DNA from: Alcanivorax sp. DSM 26293
GTDB taxonomy: Bacteria > Pseudomonadota > Gammaproteobacteria > Pseudomonadales > Alcanivoracaceae
Assembly (NCBI RefSeq): GCF_900107995.1
Contig: NZ_FNUM01000012.1
Coordinates: 1 to 64,000 of the forward strand
Direction of reading: 5' to 3'
DNA: 64,000 nucleotides
The notes below the pieces were generated by a model that saw only the letters and a list, made by a program, of their open reading frames with translations, was not told where the DNA came from and did no database searches. Positions within the stretch are counted from its first letter, which is position 1, and every line of letters begins with the position of its first letter. Below, one piece after another: positions 40,393 to 51,826 of this stretch. The position numbers and the translations under genes were made by a program.

Positions 40393-40428
40393 AAAAGCCC
40401 GACCCGGGAAACCGGGTCGGGCTTTTTT
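40393..40428 (+). terminator. Rho-independent terminator after gpmA
   Basis: AAAAGCCCGACCCGG-GAAA-CCGGGTCGGGCTTTTTT, a strong stem with a GNRA loop and T run. Confidence 0.97.
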
Positions 40429-40467: not shown

Positions 40468-40620
40468 TCGAGTTGAAAGTTAAAAGTTCAAAGTTAAAAA
40501 GTGCGCGATGGGTTGATTTTGAGCGGCCATGCCCGCGCCATTAGCGTTAATCGCGGGCACACCATTCCTGCCTTTGACAACTTAGTCCGCGTTTCAACTT
40601 TAAACTTTGAACTTTCAACT
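40468..40620. repeat. Paired iterated words (GTTGAAAGTTAAAAGTTCAAAG type)
   Basis: GAGTTGAAAGTTAAAAGTTC around 40470-40489 is mirrored by GAACTTTCAACTACGC at 40609-40624. Inside, GCCCGCG (40531) pairs with CGCGGGC (40552). The right copy includes the stop codon of the RND permease gene. Same words as 2301-2466. Confidence 0.8.
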
Positions 40621-43600
40621 ACGCTGCTCAGACGTATCCCGGTCGCTACTCTGATCCTGCCGACCCGCCTCCCAGGCAGAAGCCAGGACGGCATCCTGGT
40701 AGGGGTTGCTGGTCACCCACCAGGCCGTCATGCGACCCCGCTCATAGGCCATGTCCACGCTGTCCTCCTCCGAGGCCTCCGGCGCCCGCCAGCGGGCCAG
40801 GCTACGCTGAACCAGGCTGCGCACATCATGGCTCACCACCAACAGACAGGGCACCAGCAGCAGGCTGACCAGGGTGGCAAACAACACGCCAAACGCCAGG
40901 GACACGGCCATGGGAATCAGGAAACGGGCCTGCACACTGGTCTCCAGCATCAGCGGCGCCACCCCGGCAAAGGTGGTCATGGAGGTCAGCATCACGGGCC
41001 GCAGGCGGCTGCTGACGCCTTCGATCACCGCATCACGAAGACGCATGCCATGGCTTCGCAAGGTATTGATGGCATCAATCAGTACCAGGTTGTCGTTGAC
41101 CACCACGCCACTCACCGCGATGACCCCCACCAGCGACCACAATGTCAGGCTGTAACCCAGCAGGAAGTGCCCCAGGAAGGCCCCCACCATGCCGAAGGGG
41201 ATTGCCGCCATCACCAGTAGCGGCTGGCCATAGCCGCCAAACAGCACGGTGAGCAGGAAAAATATGGCAGCCAGGGCAATCAGGTAGCTGATCGACAGAT
41301 GATCCAGGAAGTCCTGGATCGCCGCCTGCTTGCCGGCCACCGTCCAGCCCGCCTGGGAATCGGCGGACTCCATGGGGGCCAACACCTGTTGCTGCAGTGC
41401 CGCCATCACCTGGGCCGGTGACGTCACATGTTCATCTACGAAAGCACTGATGGTCGCACTGCGGCGGCCATCGTAATGGCTGATCATGGCCGGCACCTGG
41501 CGTCGCTGCAGGTCGGCCACTGCCGCCAGCACAGTGATCTCCCCATCCGGCAGTTGCACCGGCAACCGTTCCAGGTCACTGATATGGCGACTGTCGCGGC
41601 TGGCCAGACGCAACATCACCGGCACTTCCTGATCCTGTTCGAACCAGCGATCCAGCTCGATACCGTGGAACGCATTGCGGATCTGCAGTCCCAGCTGCTC
41701 CACCCGCAGGCCCGCCAGTTTGCCTTCTTCCCGCAGGCCGATATCAACCAGGGTGCGACGGGAAGACAGGTTGTTGGCCACTTCATGGACCCCCTCCATG
41801 TTCGCCAGGGCCTGCGCCGTCTGCGCACTCAAACGTTGCAAGGTGGCCAGATCCGGGTGGAACAGATTGACGTGAATATCCGGCTTCACCTGCATCAGGC
41901 TGGCATGGAATTTGACCGACAGGGCATCGGCAATGGGGCCATGCTGCCCCCGCCACAGACTGGCCAGCTCCCGGGGAGACAAGGCGCTGGTATCTCCGCC
42001 AATGGCCAGGGTCACCCGTACCCGGAAGCGGGCACCCGGGTCACGGGCATTGGAGGTTTTCTGGCGCACCCCCTGCTCGGCAAACACCGCATCCACGGTG
42101 ACCGGCTGCTGGTCAGCCTGCAATTGCGCTGATAGCTTGCGGGCGGAGCCTTCCAGGGCCTGCACCTCGCGCAGCAGCCGCGCCTCGCCGGTGCCCCGGG
42201 GGAACACCACTTCCGCCATCACCCGGTCGCCCTCCACCCGGGAAAACAACACCATGGTCAGCCAGCCGCTGTTGACCAGGGCGCAGCAGAAAATAAACAG
42301 CCCTACAAACACCACCACCAGCACATACCGCCAGCGCAGGGCCCGTCGCAGCAGTGGCCGGGCCCGGTATTCCAGCCAGCGATCCAGCCGGCTATTGATG
42401 CGCGTGGAGAGTTGCTCGGACTTTCGCCAGATCCCCCGGGCGGGGCGGTCATAGCTGAGGTGAGAGGGCAAAATCCACAGGGACTCCACCAAGGACAGCA
42501 CCAGAATGGCCATGGACACAATGGGGATCACCCGCATCAGCGCCCCTTCCGGGCCAGGCAGGAACAGCAGCGGCGCAAAGGCAATCAGGGTGGTCAGCAC
42601 CGCAAACAGGATCGGTCGCGACACCCGCTGGGCGCCGGCAATGGCGGCCTCCTGACCGGCCATGCCACCCTGGCGGCGCTGGTGATCAATACTCTCGCCG
42701 ACGATCACCGCATCGTCGACCACAATGCCCAGCACCAGGATAAAGGCGAACAGGGAGATGGTGTTGAAGGATTCGCCCAGCACCGGCAGCAAGGCACAGG
42801 CACCCAGCATGCAGACCGGAATCCCCAGTGCCACCCAACCAGCCAGACGCAGGGTGAGAAACACCCCCAGCATCAGGGTCAGCAACACCAGCCCCTGCAG
42901 CGCATTGCGCCACAACAGATGGGAGCGTTCGCGAAACTGGGCCGCATCGTCACTCCACACCTGCAAGGCGACGCCCGGCGGTAACTGCGCCTGCTGCAGA
43001 TAGCCGCTCACCGCCCCGGCCACGTCCAGCACGTTCTGGTCGCCGACCCGGTAGATATCCAGCGCTACCGCCGGCCGGCCGTCCAGCCAGGCGGCCTGAC
43101 TGTCTCGGGAGAAACCATCCTCAATGCGGGCCACGTCGCCGAGACGCAACAGATCGCCCTGCTCGGACTGGCGAATCACCAACTGTTGATAGGCGCTGGC
43201 CTCTCCCGGTTGCTGGCCGGTCTGTAGCAGCCAGTCACCCCGGTCGCTGCGCAACAGCCCCCCGGCAACCCGCTCCACGCTTTCACGGGCGGCGGCGGCC
43301 ATACCTTCCAGGGTGAGCTGATAGCGGTACAGATCATCCCGGGCCACGGTCAGCGCCATTTCCCGTTCCGGCAGGTTTTCGATATCCACACTGGATACCG
43401 CATCATGATTGAGCAGCTGCCGGCGCACCTGATGAGCCAGTTGATAGAGATCCTGGCGGGACAGGCTGCCACTGAGCAGCAGCCGCACCACCCGGTTTCG
43501 CACAATCAGTTCCTGCACCCGGGGGCGCTCGGCGTCGCCGGGCAAGGTATCAAGGGCTTCCAGGCGAGTGCGGATCTGCTCCAGCACGGCGCGGGTATCA

Positions 43601-43899
43601 TGCCCCTTGAGCACATCCAGCTGCACCGAACACAACCCCTCCCGGGCTTCACTGATCAGTTCGGTGCCCCCTTCCACATCGTCGATGGCGGTTTCCACTG
43701 GCGTGCAGACCAGGGCCTCCACACTTTCCGGTGTGGCCTGGGGCCAGGCCACATAGATACCGATGCGGTCCAGCGGCACGTTGGGCAGGGTTTCCTGGCG
43801 GGTGTGGGGGATGGCCATCAGGCCGGCCAACAGCAGGGTGATCATCAGCAGGTTGGCCACCGCGCTGTTGCGGGCGAACCAGGCAATACTGCGGTTCAC
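40615..43899 (-). CDS. RND-family efflux permease (AcrB/MdtB-like)
   Basis: A 1094-residue proton-driven exporter with the RND layout: TM1 at about 10-30, a large periplasmic porter domain, TM2-6, a second loop and TM7-12. The proton-relay Asp pair is in LGIVVDDAVIVGES. The N-terminus RNSAVANLLMI and TRQETLPNVPLDRIGIYVAW resemble the HAE/nodulation-type branch rather than metal pumps. A 40-residue polar tail follows TM12. It overlaps the adaptor gene by four bases. No outer-membrane factor gene is nearby, so a TolC-like protein encoded elsewhere is presumably shared. In this operon it probably exports the product of the upstream enzymes. Confidence 0.93.
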   Translation of the reverse strand: MNRSIAWFARNSAVANLLMITLLLAGLMAIPHTRQETLPNVPLDRIGIYVAWPQATPESVEALVCTPVETAIDDVEGGTELISEAREGLCSVQLDVLKGHDTRAVLEQIRTRLEALDTLPGDAERPRVQELIVRNRVVRLLLSGSLSRQDLYQLAHQVRRQLLNHDAVSSVDIENLPEREMALTVARDDLYRYQLTLEGMAAAARESVERVAGGLLRSDRGDWLLQTGQQPGEASAYQQLVIRQSEQGDLLRLGDVARIEDGFSRDSQAAWLDGRPAVALDIYRVGDQNVLDVAGAVSGYLQQAQLPPGVALQVWSDDAAQFRERSHLLWRNALQGLVLLTLMLGVFLTLRLAGWVALGIPVCMLGACALLPVLGESFNTISLFAFILVLGIVVDDAVIVGESIDHQRRQGGMAGQEAAIAGAQRVSRPILFAVLTTLIAFAPLLFLPGPEGALMRVIPIVSMAILVLSLVESLWILPSHLSYDRPARGIWRKSEQLSTRINSRLDRWLEYRARPLLRRALRWRYVLVVVFVGLFIFCCALVNSGWLTMVLFSRVEGDRVMAEVVFPRGTGEARLLREVQALEGSARKLSAQLQADQQPVTVDAVFAEQGVRQKTSNARDPGARFRVRVTLAIGGDTSALSPRELASLWRGQHGPIADALSVKFHASLMQVKPDIHVNLFHPDLATLQRLSAQTAQALANMEGVHEVANNLSSRRTLVDIGLREEGKLAGLRVEQLGLQIRNAFHGIELDRWFEQDQEVPVMLRLASRDSRHISDLERLPVQLPDGEITVLAAVADLQRRQVPAMISHYDGRRSATISAFVDEHVTSPAQVMAALQQQVLAPMESADSQAGWTVAGKQAAIQDFLDHLSISYLIALAAIFFLLTVLFGGYGQPLLVMAAIPFGMVGAFLGHFLLGYSLTLWSLVGVIAVSGVVVNDNLVLIDAINTLRSHGMRLRDAVIEGVSSRLRPVMLTSMTTFAGVAPLMLETSVQARFLIPMAVSLAFGVLFATLVSLLLVPCLLVVSHDVRSLVQRSLARWRAPEASEEDSVDMAYERGRMTAWWVTSNPYQDAVLASAWEAGRQDQSSDRDTSEQRS

Positions 43900-45059
43900 A
43901 GCGCTGTCTCAGTGGCAGAACGATCCGCCAGTCCGCTGGCAGGAGGACGGGGGTCGATACGCATGCCCTCCAGCAGCTGCAAGTCTCCGGCCAGCACTAC
44001 CCGGGAGGAAGCGGTCACACCGTCGTGCAGATACAGGGAGTCATCATCGTGGTGCAGTATCGCCACGGATTGACGTCGCAACCGCTTGTCCTCATCCAGG
44101 ACCCAGACAGCGTTCTCGCCAGCCTGGGCTGCCCGGGGCAGCACCGCCACATTTTTCGTCGGCGCGCCGCGCAGCTCCGCCTGCACCAGCACCCCGGGCT
44201 CCAGGGGCAAGCCGTCCTCGCTATTGGTGACCTGAACGATCAGGTGCATCATGCGGTTCTTGTTCAGGCCACCTTCGCGGCGCACCACCCTGCCCGACCA
44301 CTGGCCGTCCCGGCCGGCAAAGCGGCCACGCAGGGTAACGTTCACCGGCTCCAGGGTGCCTTCATCACCGGGCATGATGCCCAGCAGTGCCAGCCACTCA
44401 TCGCGAACCGGCAGCCGTACCTCCACCTGATCTTCCTGATACAAGCGAGCCAGAATGCTGCCGGCCTGTATCTGTTGTCCGGCCATGGCCTGGACGGCTT
44501 TCAGGCGACCACTGATCGGCGCCACCAGCTCCGTCTGTTCCTGATTCCGTTGGGCCTGGCGCAAGCCGGCACGGGCCGAGGCAAGACGGCTGTTGGCTTC
44601 GTCCAGTTGCGGTTCAAAGCGACCCAGCGCCGAGGAACGCTTGGCGGATCCCGAGACCCGTGCCCGCGCCCGGGTTTCCTCCAGATGCAGCCGCGCCGCA
44701 TGGACGGCGTTCTGCTGGGCAGTAACGTCCAGCGCAAAGGGCTCCGGATCCAGCTTCAGTAATACCTCGCCGGCCGTCACCCGCCCCCCGTCTGCCAGTA
44801 GCGGCGATACTTCCTGCACCCGGCCGGACACTTCCAGACTCAGCGGCAATTCATGACGGGCACGCACCAGTCCTTGACTGTGCACCGGAATGACCACGTC
44901 CTTCCATTCCACTTGCCAGGAGTCCAGAGCCAGAATCGTCTCTTCGCTTTTCACCGCCGGCGGTGACGGCGGCACCAGATACAGGGCCGCCACCGCCAAC
45001 GCCATGGCCAGGGCGGCCAGCAGAGCCACCAACGCGCGCAGACTCACAATCCGTTTCAT
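43896..45059 (-). CDS. RND periplasmic adaptor subunit
   Basis: A 387-residue membrane fusion protein: N-terminal membrane anchor (about 8-29), a lipoyl half-motif LSGRVQEVSPLL-like stretch at 77-100, a short helical hairpin (110-165), the second lipoyl half VAPISGRLKAVQAMAGQQ, beta-barrel and membrane-proximal domains. The helical hairpin is short, as in adaptors of the HAE1/NFE type. Both ends overlap neighbours by four bases. Confidence 0.92.
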   Translation of the reverse strand: MKRIVSLRALVALLAALAMALAVAALYLVPPSPPAVKSEETILALDSWQVEWKDVVIPVHSQGLVRARHELPLSLEVSGRVQEVSPLLADGGRVTAGEVLLKLDPEPFALDVTAQQNAVHAARLHLEETRARARVSGSAKRSSALGRFEPQLDEANSRLASARAGLRQAQRNQEQTELVAPISGRLKAVQAMAGQQIQAGSILARLYQEDQVEVRLPVRDEWLALLGIMPGDEGTLEPVNVTLRGRFAGRDGQWSGRVVRREGGLNKNRMMHLIVQVTNSEDGLPLEPGVLVQAELRGAPTKNVAVLPRAAQAGENAVWVLDEDKRLRRQSVAILHHDDDSLYLHDGVTASSRVVLAGDLQLLEGMRIDPRPPASGLADRSATETAL

Positions 45060-46015
45060 GCCGTCACTCCCAGTCCCTCAACCCAACATTGCAGACATTC
45101 GCGCACCGCTGACTCCGGGGCGCCCAGGGACGGGTGCAGCTTCAGCGCCAGGCTCAAGCTGCCATTCACAATGATCATGCCGTTGGCTACCGGATGGGTG
45201 GGACTCCCGGGGCCACAGCAGGCGAATACCGTGTCGGGAGCCAGGCCTCCTGAAACGAAATCCATCTGCCACTCTCCCAGGTTGGAGAAGGAGCCGCCGT
45301 GGCGGGCACCGTTGAGCAGACGGCCACATAGCCAGTCCACCCCCCGCTGGCCAATCAGCCGACCAATTCGGGCAAGGTGCCAGTAGCGCCAGTGAATATT
45401 GGCTTTCAGATAGCGACGAATGGTGTGGTCCAGATGAGTCAGCGAATCGTCACTGTCCACCGTCATGTAAAAAGCACTGGACAGATTCATATCCGGCTTC
45501 GCCATGGGCACCACGCCGCGCATGTTCACCGGGAAGCACCAGCTGATGGGCACTGCATGGGTCATCAGGGTTTGCACCACGGCCCGATGCAGGGCCTGCA
45601 ACAACAGGCTGTTGAGAGAGACCTGCAGCGCCTCGGCCCGCTGCCGCAGGGCAAGGGTTTGCCGTGGCGTCAGCCATTCCACCAGGGGCGCATCCGCCTG
45701 CTTTTCGGCCGTGGAGGTGAAGGCCCGCCAGGGGGGGGATTGCGGCTGGCGTCGCTCCGGCCGTGCCTGCCAGCGACGCCAGAACGCGGGCGGCCGGGTC
45801 TGGCGACTGAGGGGCATGGGCGGCTGACGCACGCCCATGCGCTTGAGGGATTCGGCGATGCCGCCCACCCCGTCATGGTCACGGTGCCGCAACGCCACGG
45901 TATGGCGCTTCCCAGACGCCGGATGGATGAAGATAAACTCAATCCGGTCATCAATACCGAGCCGGGCACGGGCTCGGTACCACATGCCGATATAGTCGGT
46001 TGCACTGGCACTCAC
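45056..46015 (-). CDS. Condensation / wax-ester-synthase-like acyltransferase
   Basis: A 319-residue protein of the CoA-dependent acyltransferase fold. The catalytic pattern HxxxDG is read as H44-D48-G49 in RHRDHDGVGG; later WCFPVNMRGVV and GSFSNLGEW resemble the conserved PVNxR and SN-loop motifs of WS/DGAT and condensation domains. It is about 130 residues shorter than WS/DGAT enzymes, mostly at the N-terminus, so the acceptor side may differ. It would join an acyl group to an alcohol or amine. The fold call is by motif only. Confidence 0.65.
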   Translation of the reverse strand: MSASATDYIGMWYRARARLGIDDRIEFIFIHPASGKRHTVALRHRDHDGVGGIAESLKRMGVRQPPMPLSRQTRPPAFWRRWQARPERRQPQSPPWRAFTSTAEKQADAPLVEWLTPRQTLALRQRAEALQVSLNSLLLQALHRAVVQTLMTHAVPISWCFPVNMRGVVPMAKPDMNLSSAFYMTVDSDDSLTHLDHTIRRYLKANIHWRYWHLARIGRLIGQRGVDWLCGRLLNGARHGGSFSNLGEWQMDFVSGGLAPDTVFACCGPGSPTHPVANGMIIVNGSLSLALKLHPSLGAPESAVRECLQCWVEGLGVTA

Positions 46016-47103
46016 AGGCGCGCGACCTCCACGTAGGGCAAACGCCCATCGAGCTGGTCACGAGGATCGCCATCGTAGCTGACCAGAAAATGCTGGCTCA
46101 GCAATAGCCGACGGCGATACCGGACCGGTACCTGCGCCAGTGGGTCCTGGGCAAAGAACCCGCAAACCAGCGCGTCATAGTGGCCATGGAAGCGACTGAT
46201 CACATCGTCGAGCAACAGCTGCAACAGCTCCGGGCGATTATCCTCGACCACCAGGCTGTGCAGTGTCAGGTAGGACAACACCCCACCCGGTGGCGGTAAT
46301 TTCATGCCGCCCCGCAGCAGGCTGTGTGTGTTGTATAGATGGCGCATGACTCCCATGCCACGGGCATAGCCCAGCACCCGGGTCTGCTTGATCCCCTTCT
46401 GATCCCAGAAACCCAGCAATCCTTTCAGAACGCCACCGATCCAGAGACCGATAAAGTTCCGCGGGCTGAGCCCGTAACAGTAGGCATCACCCCGCACCCG
46501 GGACACATCCCAGTAGGGGAAAAACTGTTTCTGTGCCCCCTGATATCGCAACAGCTGGGAAATGGCATCCAGGTCGGCCTCGCCGGTCTGGCGAATCACC
46601 ACGTCATCAGGCAATCGCCGGCGGCGGGCCCGGGTATAGAGCATGCTGGTTTCGATGGTGCCGGAGGGATAGTAGGTGGGCAGCCCGGCGCGGCCACTGG
46701 CCACGGTAGACAGGGATGCCAGGTTGTCATGCAGCACCGTGGTCTGCATCCACTCGCCGTTTGACAGTTGCTGGCGCAACTGACGAAACAGCCGGTGCAG
46801 GATCATGCCGTTGCGATATTGCGGCGCGATGCGCAGATCGTGGGCGTAACGCACCGGCCTGACCTGGCCGTTGACCCAAACATGGCGCCAACCCACATTG
46901 TAGACGGCCCCGATTTGTCCCTGACCATCCCGTGGCTCTGCCACCCACACATCCGGCTCTTCACAGGTCACCCGGGCGCCCCGAAAATAATCCGGGTTCC
47001 GTTCAAAATTCAGGGTAACCGCTCCTGCCTGGGGCGTACCTTGCAGCAAGGACAGGATGGCACCGTTATCTTCTTCCCGGGCCTGGCGAATACGGTAGCT
47101 CAC
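46012..47103 (-). CDS. GNAT-like acyltransferase
   Basis: A 363-residue protein whose first half has the GNAT pattern: REEDNGAILSLLQ, beta-strand VWVAEP...QIGAVYNVGW, then DLRIAPQYRNGMILHRLFRQ as the acyl-CoA loop. The second half repeats the pattern (VVIRQTGEADLDAISQLL), suggesting a double-GNAT architecture in which one half may be structural. A substrate cannot be assigned. Coupled by four-base overlaps on both sides. Confidence 0.65.
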   Translation of the reverse strand: MSYRIRQAREEDNGAILSLLQGTPQAGAVTLNFERNPDYFRGARVTCEEPDVWVAEPRDGQGQIGAVYNVGWRHVWVNGQVRPVRYAHDLRIAPQYRNGMILHRLFRQLRQQLSNGEWMQTTVLHDNLASLSTVASGRAGLPTYYPSGTIETSMLYTRARRRRLPDDVVIRQTGEADLDAISQLLRYQGAQKQFFPYWDVSRVRGDAYCYGLSPRNFIGLWIGGVLKGLLGFWDQKGIKQTRVLGYARGMGVMRHLYNTHSLLRGGMKLPPPGGVLSYLTLHSLVVEDNRPELLQLLLDDVISRFHGHYDALVCGFFAQDPLAQVPVRYRRRLLLSQHFLVSYDGDPRDQLDGRLPYVEVARL

Positions 47104-48716
47104 AACGCCACCTCCCGGGCCGATACCGGCGGCTCACGGAGCCACACCGGCAATGCACCCGGCCAGTACTGCAGGGACTCCATCTTGATATTGCCTTCAA
47201 TCATGCCCCGCTCACGGCACTGATGCAGGTAACGCTCGCGCATGTCCGGGCGAATGACGCAGCGCAGCGGTGCCAGCTGTTCCAGGTTACGGGCCAGCTG
47301 GTAGTGGAAGTGTTGCTGCAGCGCCGCATCAAGGGCCTTCGCCACGTTACCCGTGTTTGCACTCTCCCCCTCCAGCAACAGAAGGTACCCGGGAGTGCCG
47401 TCACCGGTATCTTCTACGGCCACGGTACATACCGGCAGGGTTTTCGGTGGCAACGTCACCTGCGACAGGGAGGCATCCAGCGCTGCCGCGGTAAGCTTCT
47501 CGCCAACCAGATCCGTGGTGCCGGCACGGCCGAGAAACGTCAGTGCCGGAATACCGCCTGGCAGCCCATCCACCCGCACCAGATCCTTGAGCCGGTAACG
47601 GAGCAGACCACTGCCGGTACTCAGCAGCGGCATCACCTCCTGCCCCTGCTCCAGTTCCCAGGGCGCATAAATGGTGCCATCAGAGGGGTCCTGGAATTCA
47701 TAGACATGGCTGCGATAAGCCAGCGCGTACTGGCCCTGATAGGGAATGGTGACGACTCCTTCCGTGGCCCACAGGCCCTTGCCCTGAAACGCGGCCTGCG
47801 GCAACAGACCGTGCAACTGCCGGGCCCAGGGGCTTGATGCGGCGGTATCCCAGGCGCTCACCAGTGCCAGCGACGGCCACAGAGTCATAAAGAAATCCGC
47901 ACTCAAGCGGCCATCCCACTGACGCAGTAACGCCGCTGCGCGCGGAGAGCGCGGGCAACACTCGGTATGACTTCCCTTCATGCGCTGGCCCCAGGAACCG
48001 CTCGCCAATACCTCCGCCAGTTCCTCTCGCCACAGGGCCATGGACTTGAGCAGACCCAGGCCAAAGGTGGGGCTCCAGATGGACATCATCGCCAGGGAGT
48101 CATCACTGACCAGGTAAGCCAGGGTGGCAAACAGGGAATCCTCGGAAGTCCGTGCCAGGGACACATCCTGAGGGACCGCCTGGGTGGCCCCGGCCAGCAG
48201 GCGCTTGCCCATGGACATGAGCTGAATATCGTCGTTGATGTCCTCGCGCATGTTGTCACGCAATGACGTGGGCACCCAGGACATGGACCAGTAATGGCGC
48301 CCCCCGCTCAGGCGGGGAAACTGGCGGTACAGGTCCACAATCCAGGGACTGATGGCGCTATCCAGTTCCGACAGAAACTGACGCGTGTAGGGAATCCACT
48401 TTATCGCCGAGGTGGAACCGCTGGTGGGCTGATAGCGAACCACCGGTGACTGAATCAGGGCATTGCCGCCGGACTCGCGGGCGCGATCGACCGGATCCCG
48501 CCAGTCGCCGTAGTCGCTCACCGGCATCTGCTCAGCAAAGGTTTCCCATTGCCAGTCTGCTGCGACACCCCGGCGCTGGCCGACCTCACAGGCCGCCACC
48601 TTGCGCAACAACAGTGCCAGCTTGTCTCTCTGAACATGCTCCAGGTTTTCCCGCCCGGCGGCAAAGCGCCGCTCACCCGGCCAGGCGGCCATTTTGAGCA
48701 AACGATGTCCGAACAT
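47100..48716 (-). CDS. GH3-family acyl-adenylating enzyme
   Basis: A 538-residue protein resembling GH3/JAR1 enzymes, which activate an acyl acid as the adenylate and couple it to an amine, usually an amino acid. The ATP motif 1 is PTSGSTSAIKWIPYT (97-111 by this start), with FFMTLWPSLALV, GLWATEGVVTIPY (the YxxTEG-like motif 2), and YRLKDLVRVDGL (motif 3). The start at 48716 (MFGHRLLKMAAW) follows GGGGTGA; the frame is open upstream but overlaps the preceding gene. GH3 homologs are scattered in bacteria with few known products. In this operon the adenylate could feed the downstream acyltransferases. Confidence 0.75.
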   Translation of the reverse strand: MFGHRLLKMAAWPGERRFAAGRENLEHVQRDKLALLLRKVAACEVGQRRGVAADWQWETFAEQMPVSDYGDWRDPVDRARESGGNALIQSPVVRYQPTSGSTSAIKWIPYTRQFLSELDSAISPWIVDLYRQFPRLSGGRHYWSMSWVPTSLRDNMREDINDDIQLMSMGKRLLAGATQAVPQDVSLARTSEDSLFATLAYLVSDDSLAMMSIWSPTFGLGLLKSMALWREELAEVLASGSWGQRMKGSHTECCPRSPRAAALLRQWDGRLSADFFMTLWPSLALVSAWDTAASSPWARQLHGLLPQAAFQGKGLWATEGVVTIPYQGQYALAYRSHVYEFQDPSDGTIYAPWELEQGQEVMPLLSTGSGLLRYRLKDLVRVDGLPGGIPALTFLGRAGTTDLVGEKLTAAALDASLSQVTLPPKTLPVCTVAVEDTGDGTPGYLLLLEGESANTGNVAKALDAALQQHFHYQLARNLEQLAPLRCVIRPDMRERYLHQCRERGMIEGNIKMESLQYWPGALPVWLREPPVSAREVAL

Positions 48717-48730
48717 GGTCACCCCGGTTT

Positions 48731-49504
48731 TTATTCGCAGGCCACAGCTGCAATTTGTGTTTTGGTTTTTCTGCGTTGTTTGCGCCACAGGGAAAACGGG
48801 TAACTCACCAGAAGGGAAAGATTGATTTCGCCGATACACGGTAATTCGGTACCGCGGTTCCAGGTTGGGTTACAGGTTTCGAAAAATTGAATTTTTTCGT
48901 TTTTCTGACGCATTTCTGCGGTAATGCCAGCCACATTGGATTTCAGATGGGTATAACCCTCACCGAAATCCAGTAATTTATTTTCTTCACAGTAAGCGTC
49001 GGAAAACAAACGGTCGCAGTAATAATCCACCAGATGAGCAAGCTCCGGATTCTTCCCGTCCGGATGCGGGTAGTAGGTATGGAAGTTATTCGCCATCAGC
49101 AAATATGTTTTATAGCCTTTTGATATCAGCAACCAGAAGAGCGGGCGGAACGGGTGGCGCAATTTCTCACGGATCATCCGGAAGAAGAATGTGACCTGTA
49201 AGGCCCGGCTACCCCAGTATTTTTCCTCTATGATGGTGTCGCCGCTAAAAACACCCTTTGCCCGGCGCCCACCCACATTCATATCCAGGGTTTTCATGGT
49301 GGAAAAACCAACCACGCGCTTGGTTGCTTTTTCCATCACCAGAATCACGCCGCTTTTTTCCACCATGTCTGTACAGAACACTTCGAGACTTACATTTTCG
49401 TAGTACCCGGAGTAAATCTCATACATTCTTCGCATTAAAGGAACTGATACTTTGGAAAGGGGTAGATAACGCGCTTTAAGGGTTTCAGTTTTTTCCCTTT
49501 GCAT
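48731..49504 (-). CDS. GNAT-like / autoinducer-synthase-like protein, first gene of the operon
   Basis: A 257-residue cytoplasmic protein. The start has a clear GGAG. The central part (VVGFSTMKTLDMNVGGRRAK, GVFSGDTIIEEKYWGSRALQ) has the strand-helix pattern of N-acyl amino acid synthases of the GNAT superfamily, but the match is weak. It is visibly richer in A and T than the genes downstream of it and ends 14 bases before the GH3 gene. Probably the acyl- or aminoacyl-transfer step that begins the pathway, though that is inference. Confidence 0.55.
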   Translation of the reverse strand: MQREKTETLKARYLPLSKVSVPLMRRMYEIYSGYYENVSLEVFCTDMVEKSGVILVMEKATKRVVGFSTMKTLDMNVGGRRAKGVFSGDTIIEEKYWGSRALQVTFFFRMIREKLRHPFRPLFWLLISKGYKTYLLMANNFHTYYPHPDGKNPELAHLVDYYCDRLFSDAYCEENKLLDFGEGYTHLKSNVAGITAEMRQKNEKIQFFETCNPTWNRGTELPCIGEINLSLLVSYPFSLWRKQRRKTKTQIAAVACE

Positions 49505-49566: not shown

Positions 49567-49600
49567 GACCGACTTAATAGTTAAATCGGCCATTTTTTTG
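49567..49600. promoter_or_regulatory. Palindrome with T run in the divergent promoter region
   Basis: GACCGA-CTTAATAGTTAAA-TCGGCC is a near-perfect palindrome followed on the + strand by ATTTTTTTG. It lies between the divergent biosynthetic operon and the AraC gene. Since no + strand gene precedes it, it is either an operator or a terminator that blocks antisense transcription. Confidence 0.45.
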
Positions 49601-49697
49601 TTAAAAAGGGCAAGCGGTGTTTAAAGTCCGAAAGATACACAGCCAAATGAGAGTCCCATCACACGAATAACAACAACTACATCAGGCATAATAAAAA

Positions 49698-50833: not shown

Positions 50834-51826
50834 ATGAAGAAGCTGATTACCGCCGTCACCACGGTTCTTGCTCTCACCGTTTCTCTGACTGCCCAGGCCG
50901 AACCGATTAAACGCAAGATCTGCGTCTTTGATATCGTCGGCAACGTTGGACCGGTCATGGGCGCCATGAAAGATTGGCAGGCCGCAGCCCTGGGCTGGGA
51001 CCTGGAAGTGGAACTGATTCCCCATACCAACGAAGCCATTGCCGCTGAGGATCTCAAGGCTGGCGTCTGCGATGCCGCCCTGATCACCGGCATCCGTGGC
51101 CGTAATTTCAATAAGTATGCCGGCACCATCGACTCCATTGGCGCCATCCCCTCCATGGAGCACATGGAAGTCGTATTGAAGGTACTGGCCCATCCGCAAA
51201 CTGCAGACAAACTTTCCCAGGGCTCCTATCAGATCATGGGGGTAGCCCCGGCCGGTGCCGCCTATGTGTTCGTGAACGATCGGGAAGTCAACTCCCTGGC
51301 CAAGGCGGCCGGCAAGCGTGTAGCAGTGCTGGAATATGATGAAACCCAGGCCATTCTGGTGTCCCAGGTTGGTGCTACCCCGGTGGGATCTGACATAACG
51401 AACTTCTCCACCAAGTTCAACAACGGCGTGGTCGATGTCATCGTCGCTCCGCTGGTGGCCTATGATGCGCTGGAACTCTATAAAGGCCTGAGCCCGGATG
51501 GCGGCATCATCGACTACCCTTTGGCCCAGCTGACCATTCAACTGGTTGCCAAGAAAGACCGTTTTCCCGCCGACATGGCGCAGAAATCCCGCGAGTATTT
51601 CTACAACAACCTGAACCGCATCACCGAGCAGCTCGACAAGGAGGCCGAAAAGGTCGACAAGCGCTGGTGGGTGCAAATCCCGGATGCCGACCAGAGAGAA
51701 TACGAAGTCATGATGCAGGAGGCCCGCGACCAGCTGCGTGACCAGGGCTATTATGATCCGGACATGCTCGGTCTGCTGCGCAAGGTGCGTTGCAAAGTGG
51801 ACCCGGCTCGGGCGGAGTGCACCTGA
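50834..51826 (+). CDS. Periplasmic TRAP-like solute-binding protein, paralog 5 (distant copy)
   Basis: A 330-residue secreted protein lacking the helical extension; signal peptide 1-22 (AQA-EP). Core: KRKICVFDIVGNVGPVMGAM, LKAGVCDAALITGIRGRNFN, PAGAAYVFVNDREV, GKRVAVLEYDETQAILVSQ, FSTKFNNGVVDVIVAPLVAY, LELYKGLSPDGGIIDYPL, and RCKVDPARAECT at the end. It is closest to paralog 4 but lies 18 kb from the permease and next to an AraC regulator. It could be a separately regulated binding protein for the same permease. The stop is followed at once by AGCTACAAGC words. Confidence 0.78.
   Translation: MKKLITAVTTVLALTVSLTAQAEPIKRKICVFDIVGNVGPVMGAMKDWQAAALGWDLEVELIPHTNEAIAAEDLKAGVCDAALITGIRGRNFNKYAGTIDSIGAIPSMEHMEVVLKVLAHPQTADKLSQGSYQIMGVAPAGAAYVFVNDREVNSLAKAAGKRVAVLEYDETQAILVSQVGATPVGSDITNFSTKFNNGVVDVIVAPLVAYDALELYKGLSPDGGIIDYPLAQLTIQLVAKKDRFPADMAQKSREYFYNNLNRITEQLDKEAEKVDKRWWVQIPDADQREYEVMMQEARDQLRDQGYYDPDMLGLLRKVRCKVDPARAECT

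Follow-up and report, generated by a model that had tools for sequence, protein, structure and literature searches.

A conserved GNAT–GH3–GNAT gene core with interchangeable exporters, and the probable biosynthesis-and-export operon built on it in Alcanivorax sp. DSM 26293

In this study we analysed a six-gene operon located in a 64,000-nucleotide stretch of DNA of Alcanivorax sp. DSM 26293 (contig NZ_FNUM01000012.1, positions 1 to 64,000; the whole stretch is referred to below as the window, and the source genome has a size of 3.71 Mb). Open reading frame (ORF) calling on the window revealed six co-directional genes on the minus strand, spanning positions 40615–49504, which overlap by 4 nt at 43896, 45056, 46012 and 47100, with a 14-nt gap (48717–48730) after the first gene. 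The six-gene unit, the four overlaps, the gap and a divergent AraC-family gene had been described in a first-pass annotation of this DNA, and all were reproduced exactly by the ORF calls. The start of the GH3 gene was placed at the ATG at 48716, which is backed by an alignment of orthologs (the mechanical ORF extends to a GTG at 48839). The features of the region are as follows:

48731–49504, minus strand: GNAT1, operon gene 1 (257 aa); GNAT fold by AlphaFold2 model, no Pfam or NCBIfam match
47100–48716, minus strand: GH3 acyl-acid amido synthetase-like enzyme (538 aa); three GH3 Pfam domains and nucleotide motifs
46012–47103, minus strand: GNAT2, predicted tandem GNAT protein (363 aa); GNAT Pfam profiles in orthologs
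45056–46015, minus strand: predicted HxxxDG acyltransferase, short condensation/PapA-like (319 aa); motif, near-cut-off PapA_C match and model
43896–45059, minus strand: RND periplasmic adaptor (membrane fusion protein, MFP); TIGR01730 above cut-off
40615–43899, minus strand: RND permease (1094 aa); PF00873
49698–50720, plus strand: divergent AraC-family regulator with Arabinose_bd and HTH_18 domains; domain profiles and genus synteny
about 49574–49613, no strand: intergenic block TTAATAGTTAAATCGGCCATTTTTTTGTTAAAAAGGGCAA, candidate operator/promoter; conservation across Alcanivorax
40393–40426, plus strand: terminator-like hairpin (15 pairs) in the interval between gpmA and the operon end; terminator scan

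The 538-residue protein can be placed firmly in the GH3 family on the basis of its sequence, as the first-pass annotation had proposed: it matched PF03321 (121.9 bits), PF23571 and PF23572, all three above cut-off in a Pfam search, and a profile search matched it with plant GH3 structures. Its nucleotide-binding motifs (TSGSTSAIK, WATE and GLLRYRLKD) agree with those printed in PMC12493201, and all three are recognisable in both this protein and the bacterial GH3 enzyme OlsH. Alignment of 20 sequences, which took in Acinetobacter, Citrobacter and Burkholderia, showed residues T98, G100, S101, K106, T318, E319, R373, Y374 and D378 to be invariant. The plant GH3 acyl acid amido synthetases (GH3.15, JAR1 and GH3.12) are of the same family and share the nucleotide motifs, but they act in hormone conjugation and are associated with neither an operon nor an exporter. 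Long GH3 ORFs in loci L106 and L124 proved to be upstream over-extensions in a different frame.

The two predicted GNATs were recovered by different routes. GNAT1 appears as a GNAT-fold protein through its structure model, but is invisible to Pfam, where a search with 20 members gave nothing beyond chance; against the PDB, too, its sequence profiles produced nothing but chance matches. The AlphaFold2 model (predicted local distance difference test score, pLDDT, 86.5) matched AAC(2'), Eis and N-myristoyltransferase (NMT), with a template modelling (TM) score of about 0.5 against single-domain targets and an additional C-terminal region, and the invariant columns are G88-D89-T90, W97-G98, K129-G130, E220 and C223. 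GNAT2 is, by sequence profile, a tandem GNAT: of 42 orthologs, 12 matched PF13527 and 10 matched PF00583 (best E-value 6.3e-06), the match of the window protein itself being weak. Some tandem GNATs use donors other than acyl-coenzyme A (acyl-CoA), and by analogy the donor of GNAT2 could be acyl-CoA or another compound. An apparent GNAT1-GH3 fusion in locus L088 is not real, since it spans an assembly gap (XX). FeeM-type enzymes are GNAT-related, as GNAT1 appears to be. They resemble it further as acyltransferases, which yield N-acyl amino acids (cited in PMC6669457), but no sequence match between GNAT1 and a solved FeeM was found, and FeeM was absent among the 50 fold matches listed.

The 319-residue protein is predicted to be a shortened condensation/PapA-type acyltransferase with the CoA-dependent acyltransferase fold. 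The residues H44, D48 and G49 of the HxxxDG motif are invariant in 18 orthologs, 14 of which match PapA_C at E ≤ 0.01 (the window protein scored 28.1 bits against a cut-off of 30). The model (pLDDT 88.8) matched epimerisation, cyclisation and condensation (E/Cy/C) domains of nonribosomal peptide synthetases (NRPS), PapA5 and BAHD enzymes, with E-values down to 9.2e-10 and TM scores of about 0.45–0.6. In comparison with these acyltransferases, the protein is about 100 residues shorter and has its motif near residue 44; therefore, the N-terminal lobe seems to be reduced. The condensation fold expected in the first-pass annotation is thus borne out by the invariant motif and the model, but not its WS/DGAT profile label: no WS/DGAT Pfam domain matched the protein, PapA_C alone did, and a PapA/C-domain description is closer. 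In two Moritella loci (L129:12737-15142 and L135:12774-15287) the HxxxDG protein and the RND adaptor form a single ORF (801 and 837 aa, respectively), with a hydrophobic segment between them.

The RND components, also foreseen in the first-pass annotation, are firmly identified at the family level by sequence profiles (PF00873, 460 bits, for the permease; TIGR01730, 123.8 bits against a cut-off of 94.9, for the adaptor). These are the families of the tripartite efflux pumps of the AcrB/MdtB class, but the permease scores far under all named multidrug-pump cut-offs and no outer-membrane channel gene is present within the operon. Several such genes (OEP) lie at other sites in the source genome.

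We scanned a genome collection using GNAT1 alone as the seed, which yielded 347 loci. The best 80 of the 347 were read; these are the closest relatives of the query and not independent samples. They originate from (i) Alcanivorax, Alloalcanivorax, Marinobacter, Thalassolituus, Bermanella, Moritella, Pleionea and Pseudomonas benzenivorans, (ii) Moraxellaceae and Acinetobacter, and (iii) many Aquabacterium and their relatives. GNAT1, GH3 and GNAT2 (the triad) were all present in 70 of the 71 loci with at least 7.5 kb of downstream sequence. Because GH3 and GNAT2 had been left out of the query, this linkage is no search artefact. In an even draw of 369 gammaproteobacterial genomes (class level), GNAT1 was found in nine, the source genome included; GH3 directly adjoins it in six of the eight others, and one of the two remaining genomes carries a truncated locus. 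Pairwise distances of the triad proteins gave Pearson coefficients of 0.90–0.96 among themselves versus 0.77–0.78 with the RND protein, which are descriptive values, the distances not being independent. This fits a core whose genes are inherited together, with the exporter more loosely attached. Across bacteria, GNAT1-GH3-GNAT2 is the unit that is conserved, and the RND pump and the HxxxDG gene are lineage-specific additions to it.

The exporters adjoining the triad in the 70 loci were RND type A (37 loci, in one of which an ABC permease was present as well), RND type B (6), HlyD with an MFS transporter (2), and HlyD with an ABC ATPase and an ABC-2 permease (11). HxxxDG was present in 35 of the 43 RND loci versus none of the 27 non-RND loci; in this set it is optional and confined to the RND type. 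Different exporters have thus independently joined one enzyme triad, which fits the prediction of a secreted product and gives strong independent support to the make-and-export character proposed in the first-pass annotation.

In an Acinetobacter baumannii locus (L032:3428-14038) and in locus L140, an EmrAB-like HlyD and MFS pair, GNAT1, GH3, a TolC-like channel gene and GNAT2 form one run, with the TolC-like gene placed between GH3 and GNAT2. Upstream of the run in L032 are genes that, by sequence reading, encode a LuxR-type regulator and an amidase. It is worth mentioning that the 3.97-Mb A. baumannii record NZ_CP064203.1 is labelled a plasmid and is probably a mislabelled chromosome. More distant clusters with a complete or partial triad (Citrobacter plasmid, Burkholderia) contain radical SAM, PAP2 or desaturase genes in place of exporters. 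The Citrobacter plasmid NZ_CP134684.1 (L033:9262-21357) carries the triad relatives interspersed with radical SAM genes, five in number, and with genes for a PAP2 phosphatase and a fatty acid desaturase, apparently a different product line with the same core. In another member of the order (L056:5401-8890) a GNAT1-GH3 pair is followed by a Rieske-type oxygenase gene, as read from the sequence, with no match to GNAT2.

GH3 was present in 31 of the 57 genomes searched, i.e. in every member of the genus (in one as a fragment) and in most of the family; it was near full-length in 16 of the 17 genus genomes, the source genome included. The loci that were read share gene order and strand, short gaps or overlaps and a divergent AraC gene, and in the genus they are flanked by gpmA and AdeT. 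The recurrence of the operon in the genus is far beyond chance, and in relatives its genes are found together rather than scattered, scattering being an outcome that the first-pass annotation had named as refuting its proposal. In some Alloalcanivorax strains the four enzyme genes are kept and a different RND pair adjoins them in the opposite orientation, while two family loci are devoid of HxxxDG. The four enzyme genes are also present in genome G029 (4,928,223 bp), whose locus is 94–96% identical to that of Alloalcanivorax. In genome G015 (3,120,143 bp) only residues 438–508 of GH3 and a partial AraC gene were found between gpmA and AdeT (L055:12124-12528), which looks like a deletion scar left by secondary loss of the operon.

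From the observed gene set, folds, motifs, synteny and exporter swapping we infer the chemistry, order of steps, substrates and export of a product. The operon of this marine oil degrader and its relatives probably constitutes a small, NRPS-free biosynthesis-and-export cassette for an acylated small molecule that is likely to be built on an amino acid. The GH3 enzyme would use ATP to adenylate a carboxylic acid, most likely a fatty acid, and couple it to an amine, for which an amino acid is the likeliest candidate; the result would be an N-acyl amino compound. The other three enzymes (GNAT1, GNAT2 and the short HxxxDG transferase) would then attach or swap additional acyl groups in amide or ester linkage, which would turn the compound into an amphiphile. 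Its export would fall to the RND adaptor and permease, together with an outer-membrane channel encoded elsewhere, and the divergent AraC regulator would control the operon. The N-acyl or ester-linked small lipid named in the first-pass annotation stays a suggestion. The OlsH enzyme of Singulisphaera acidiphila, described in 2025, condenses fatty acids with ornithine using ATP to form N-acyl-ornithine (PMC12493201), and because the window GH3 is homologous to OlsH, an N-acyl amino compound is its most likely product. The OlsH/OlsI ornithine-lipid pathway (PMC12493201) likewise starts with a GH3-like enzyme, and its operon also encodes a separate acyltransferase. It differs in that the window operon lacks the OlsI alpha/beta-hydrolase and the OlsG methyltransferase; in their place come a pair of GNATs, a transferase of the PapA/condensation type and an exporter.

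As a guess, and a rather doubtful one, the product in Alcanivoracaceae could be a lipoamino acid, such as the proline lipid of Alcanivorax, or a short lipopeptide acting as a surfactant or signal, which is the likeliest class. The strain A. borkumensis SK2 is a glucolipid maker; G015 is presumably this strain, and G029 is presumably the proline-lipid producer A. dieselolei B5. According to the literature, A. dieselolei forms a proline lipid, whereas the lipids reported for A. borkumensis are glycolipids. The guess is based on this literature together with the operon enzyme genes in G029 and their loss in G015, i.e. on a correlation of two genomes. According to a 2019 review, the biosynthesis of lipoamino-acid surfactants "was not described" (PMC6669457), and a proteomics paper on alkane-grown Thalassolituus does not mention GH3 or the acyltransferases. 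A fuller reading, which we put forward tentatively, is that the triad represents a widespread NRPS-independent class assembling secreted acyl-amino compounds with interchangeable exporters, that, where the pump is of the RND type, its adaptor carries the final acyltransferase (as in the Moritella fusions), which couples synthesis physically to export, and that the Alcanivorax products are the long-known lipoamino-acid surfactants. If this is true, the operon supplies their never-found genes.

Several points weigh against these proposals. In 14 of the 70 triad loci, all of the Aquabacterium type, no exporter of the tested kinds is adjacent, and the acyl acids accepted by GH3 enzymes need not be fatty acids. 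The surfactant guess depends on the presumed strain names of G029 and G015. Furthermore, in the 369 gammaproteobacterial genomes AlkB occurred in two of the eight triad genomes (three of nine with the source genome) versus 17 of the 360 others. Since this co-occurrence is weak, an alkane-surfactant role cannot be general, and a hydrocarbon link was not used as support.

The same lack of AlkB in many triad bacteria speaks for a non-surfactant signal or metallophore, in which the acid that GH3 joins to an amino acid would be an aryl or short acyl one, the GNATs would acylate the conjugate and the pump would export it; the LuxR-type regulator and amidase genes preceding the Acinetobacter cluster and the use of several exporter classes point in the same direction. 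We consider this unlikely, though worth serious attention: the PapA-like and RND parts are more in keeping with a lipophilic product, OlsH, the sole characterised bacterial GH3 found, uses fatty acids, and an uptake receptor was not found in the window operon. Less still speaks for a membrane aminolipid that the RND proteins carry to the outer membrane with no release to the medium, which we regard as decidedly improbable. Members of the RND superfamily do shuttle lipids between membranes. The product of OlsH is a membrane lipid (PMC12493201), but a Pfam search revealed no OlsI-type alpha/beta-hydrolase domain in any of the six operon genes, and the replacement of RND elsewhere by MFS with an outer-membrane channel, or by ABC, suggests true secretion. 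That the RND proteins are an unrelated multidrug pump beside a modification pathway is very improbable. In its favour, the permease resembles such pumps at the family level, the operon has no channel gene of its own and a different, oppositely oriented RND pair occurs in some Alloalcanivorax loci. Against it, the adaptor is coupled to HxxxDG by a 4-nt overlap and fused to it in Moritella, the identical order recurs in many genera, and other exporters independently substitute for RND.

In the papers searched on Alcanivorax or Acinetobacter we found no description of this gene set, its product or its pathway, which agrees with the first-pass annotation. The enzyme families are known; their combination and the swapping of exporters appear new to us. 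The cassette that we favour as a biosynthesis-and-export unit is real, conserved, modular and undescribed in the literature searched. Bacterial GH3 enzymes are common, and the sole characterised pathway found dates from 2025; hundreds of examples linked to two GNATs and an exporter mean that a product can be sought in the culture medium, and the cluster is a concrete candidate for marine lipoamino-acid surfactant biosynthesis.

With regard to the borders of the operon, the hairpin at 40393–40426 is strong and lies past the 3' end; two terminator-like sites were found versus 0.5 expected from shuffling. In the region between GNAT1 and AraC a consensus scan found no sigma-70 promoter. The block at about 49574–49613, a candidate operator/promoter, is strongly kept in 12 Alcanivorax intergenic regions, its flanks being less conserved. 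Beyond AraC lies a gene for an AdeT1/2-like solute-binding protein (50834–51826), a neighbour of the operon across the genus; because G015 has kept this gene despite losing the operon, it is probably not an operon member.

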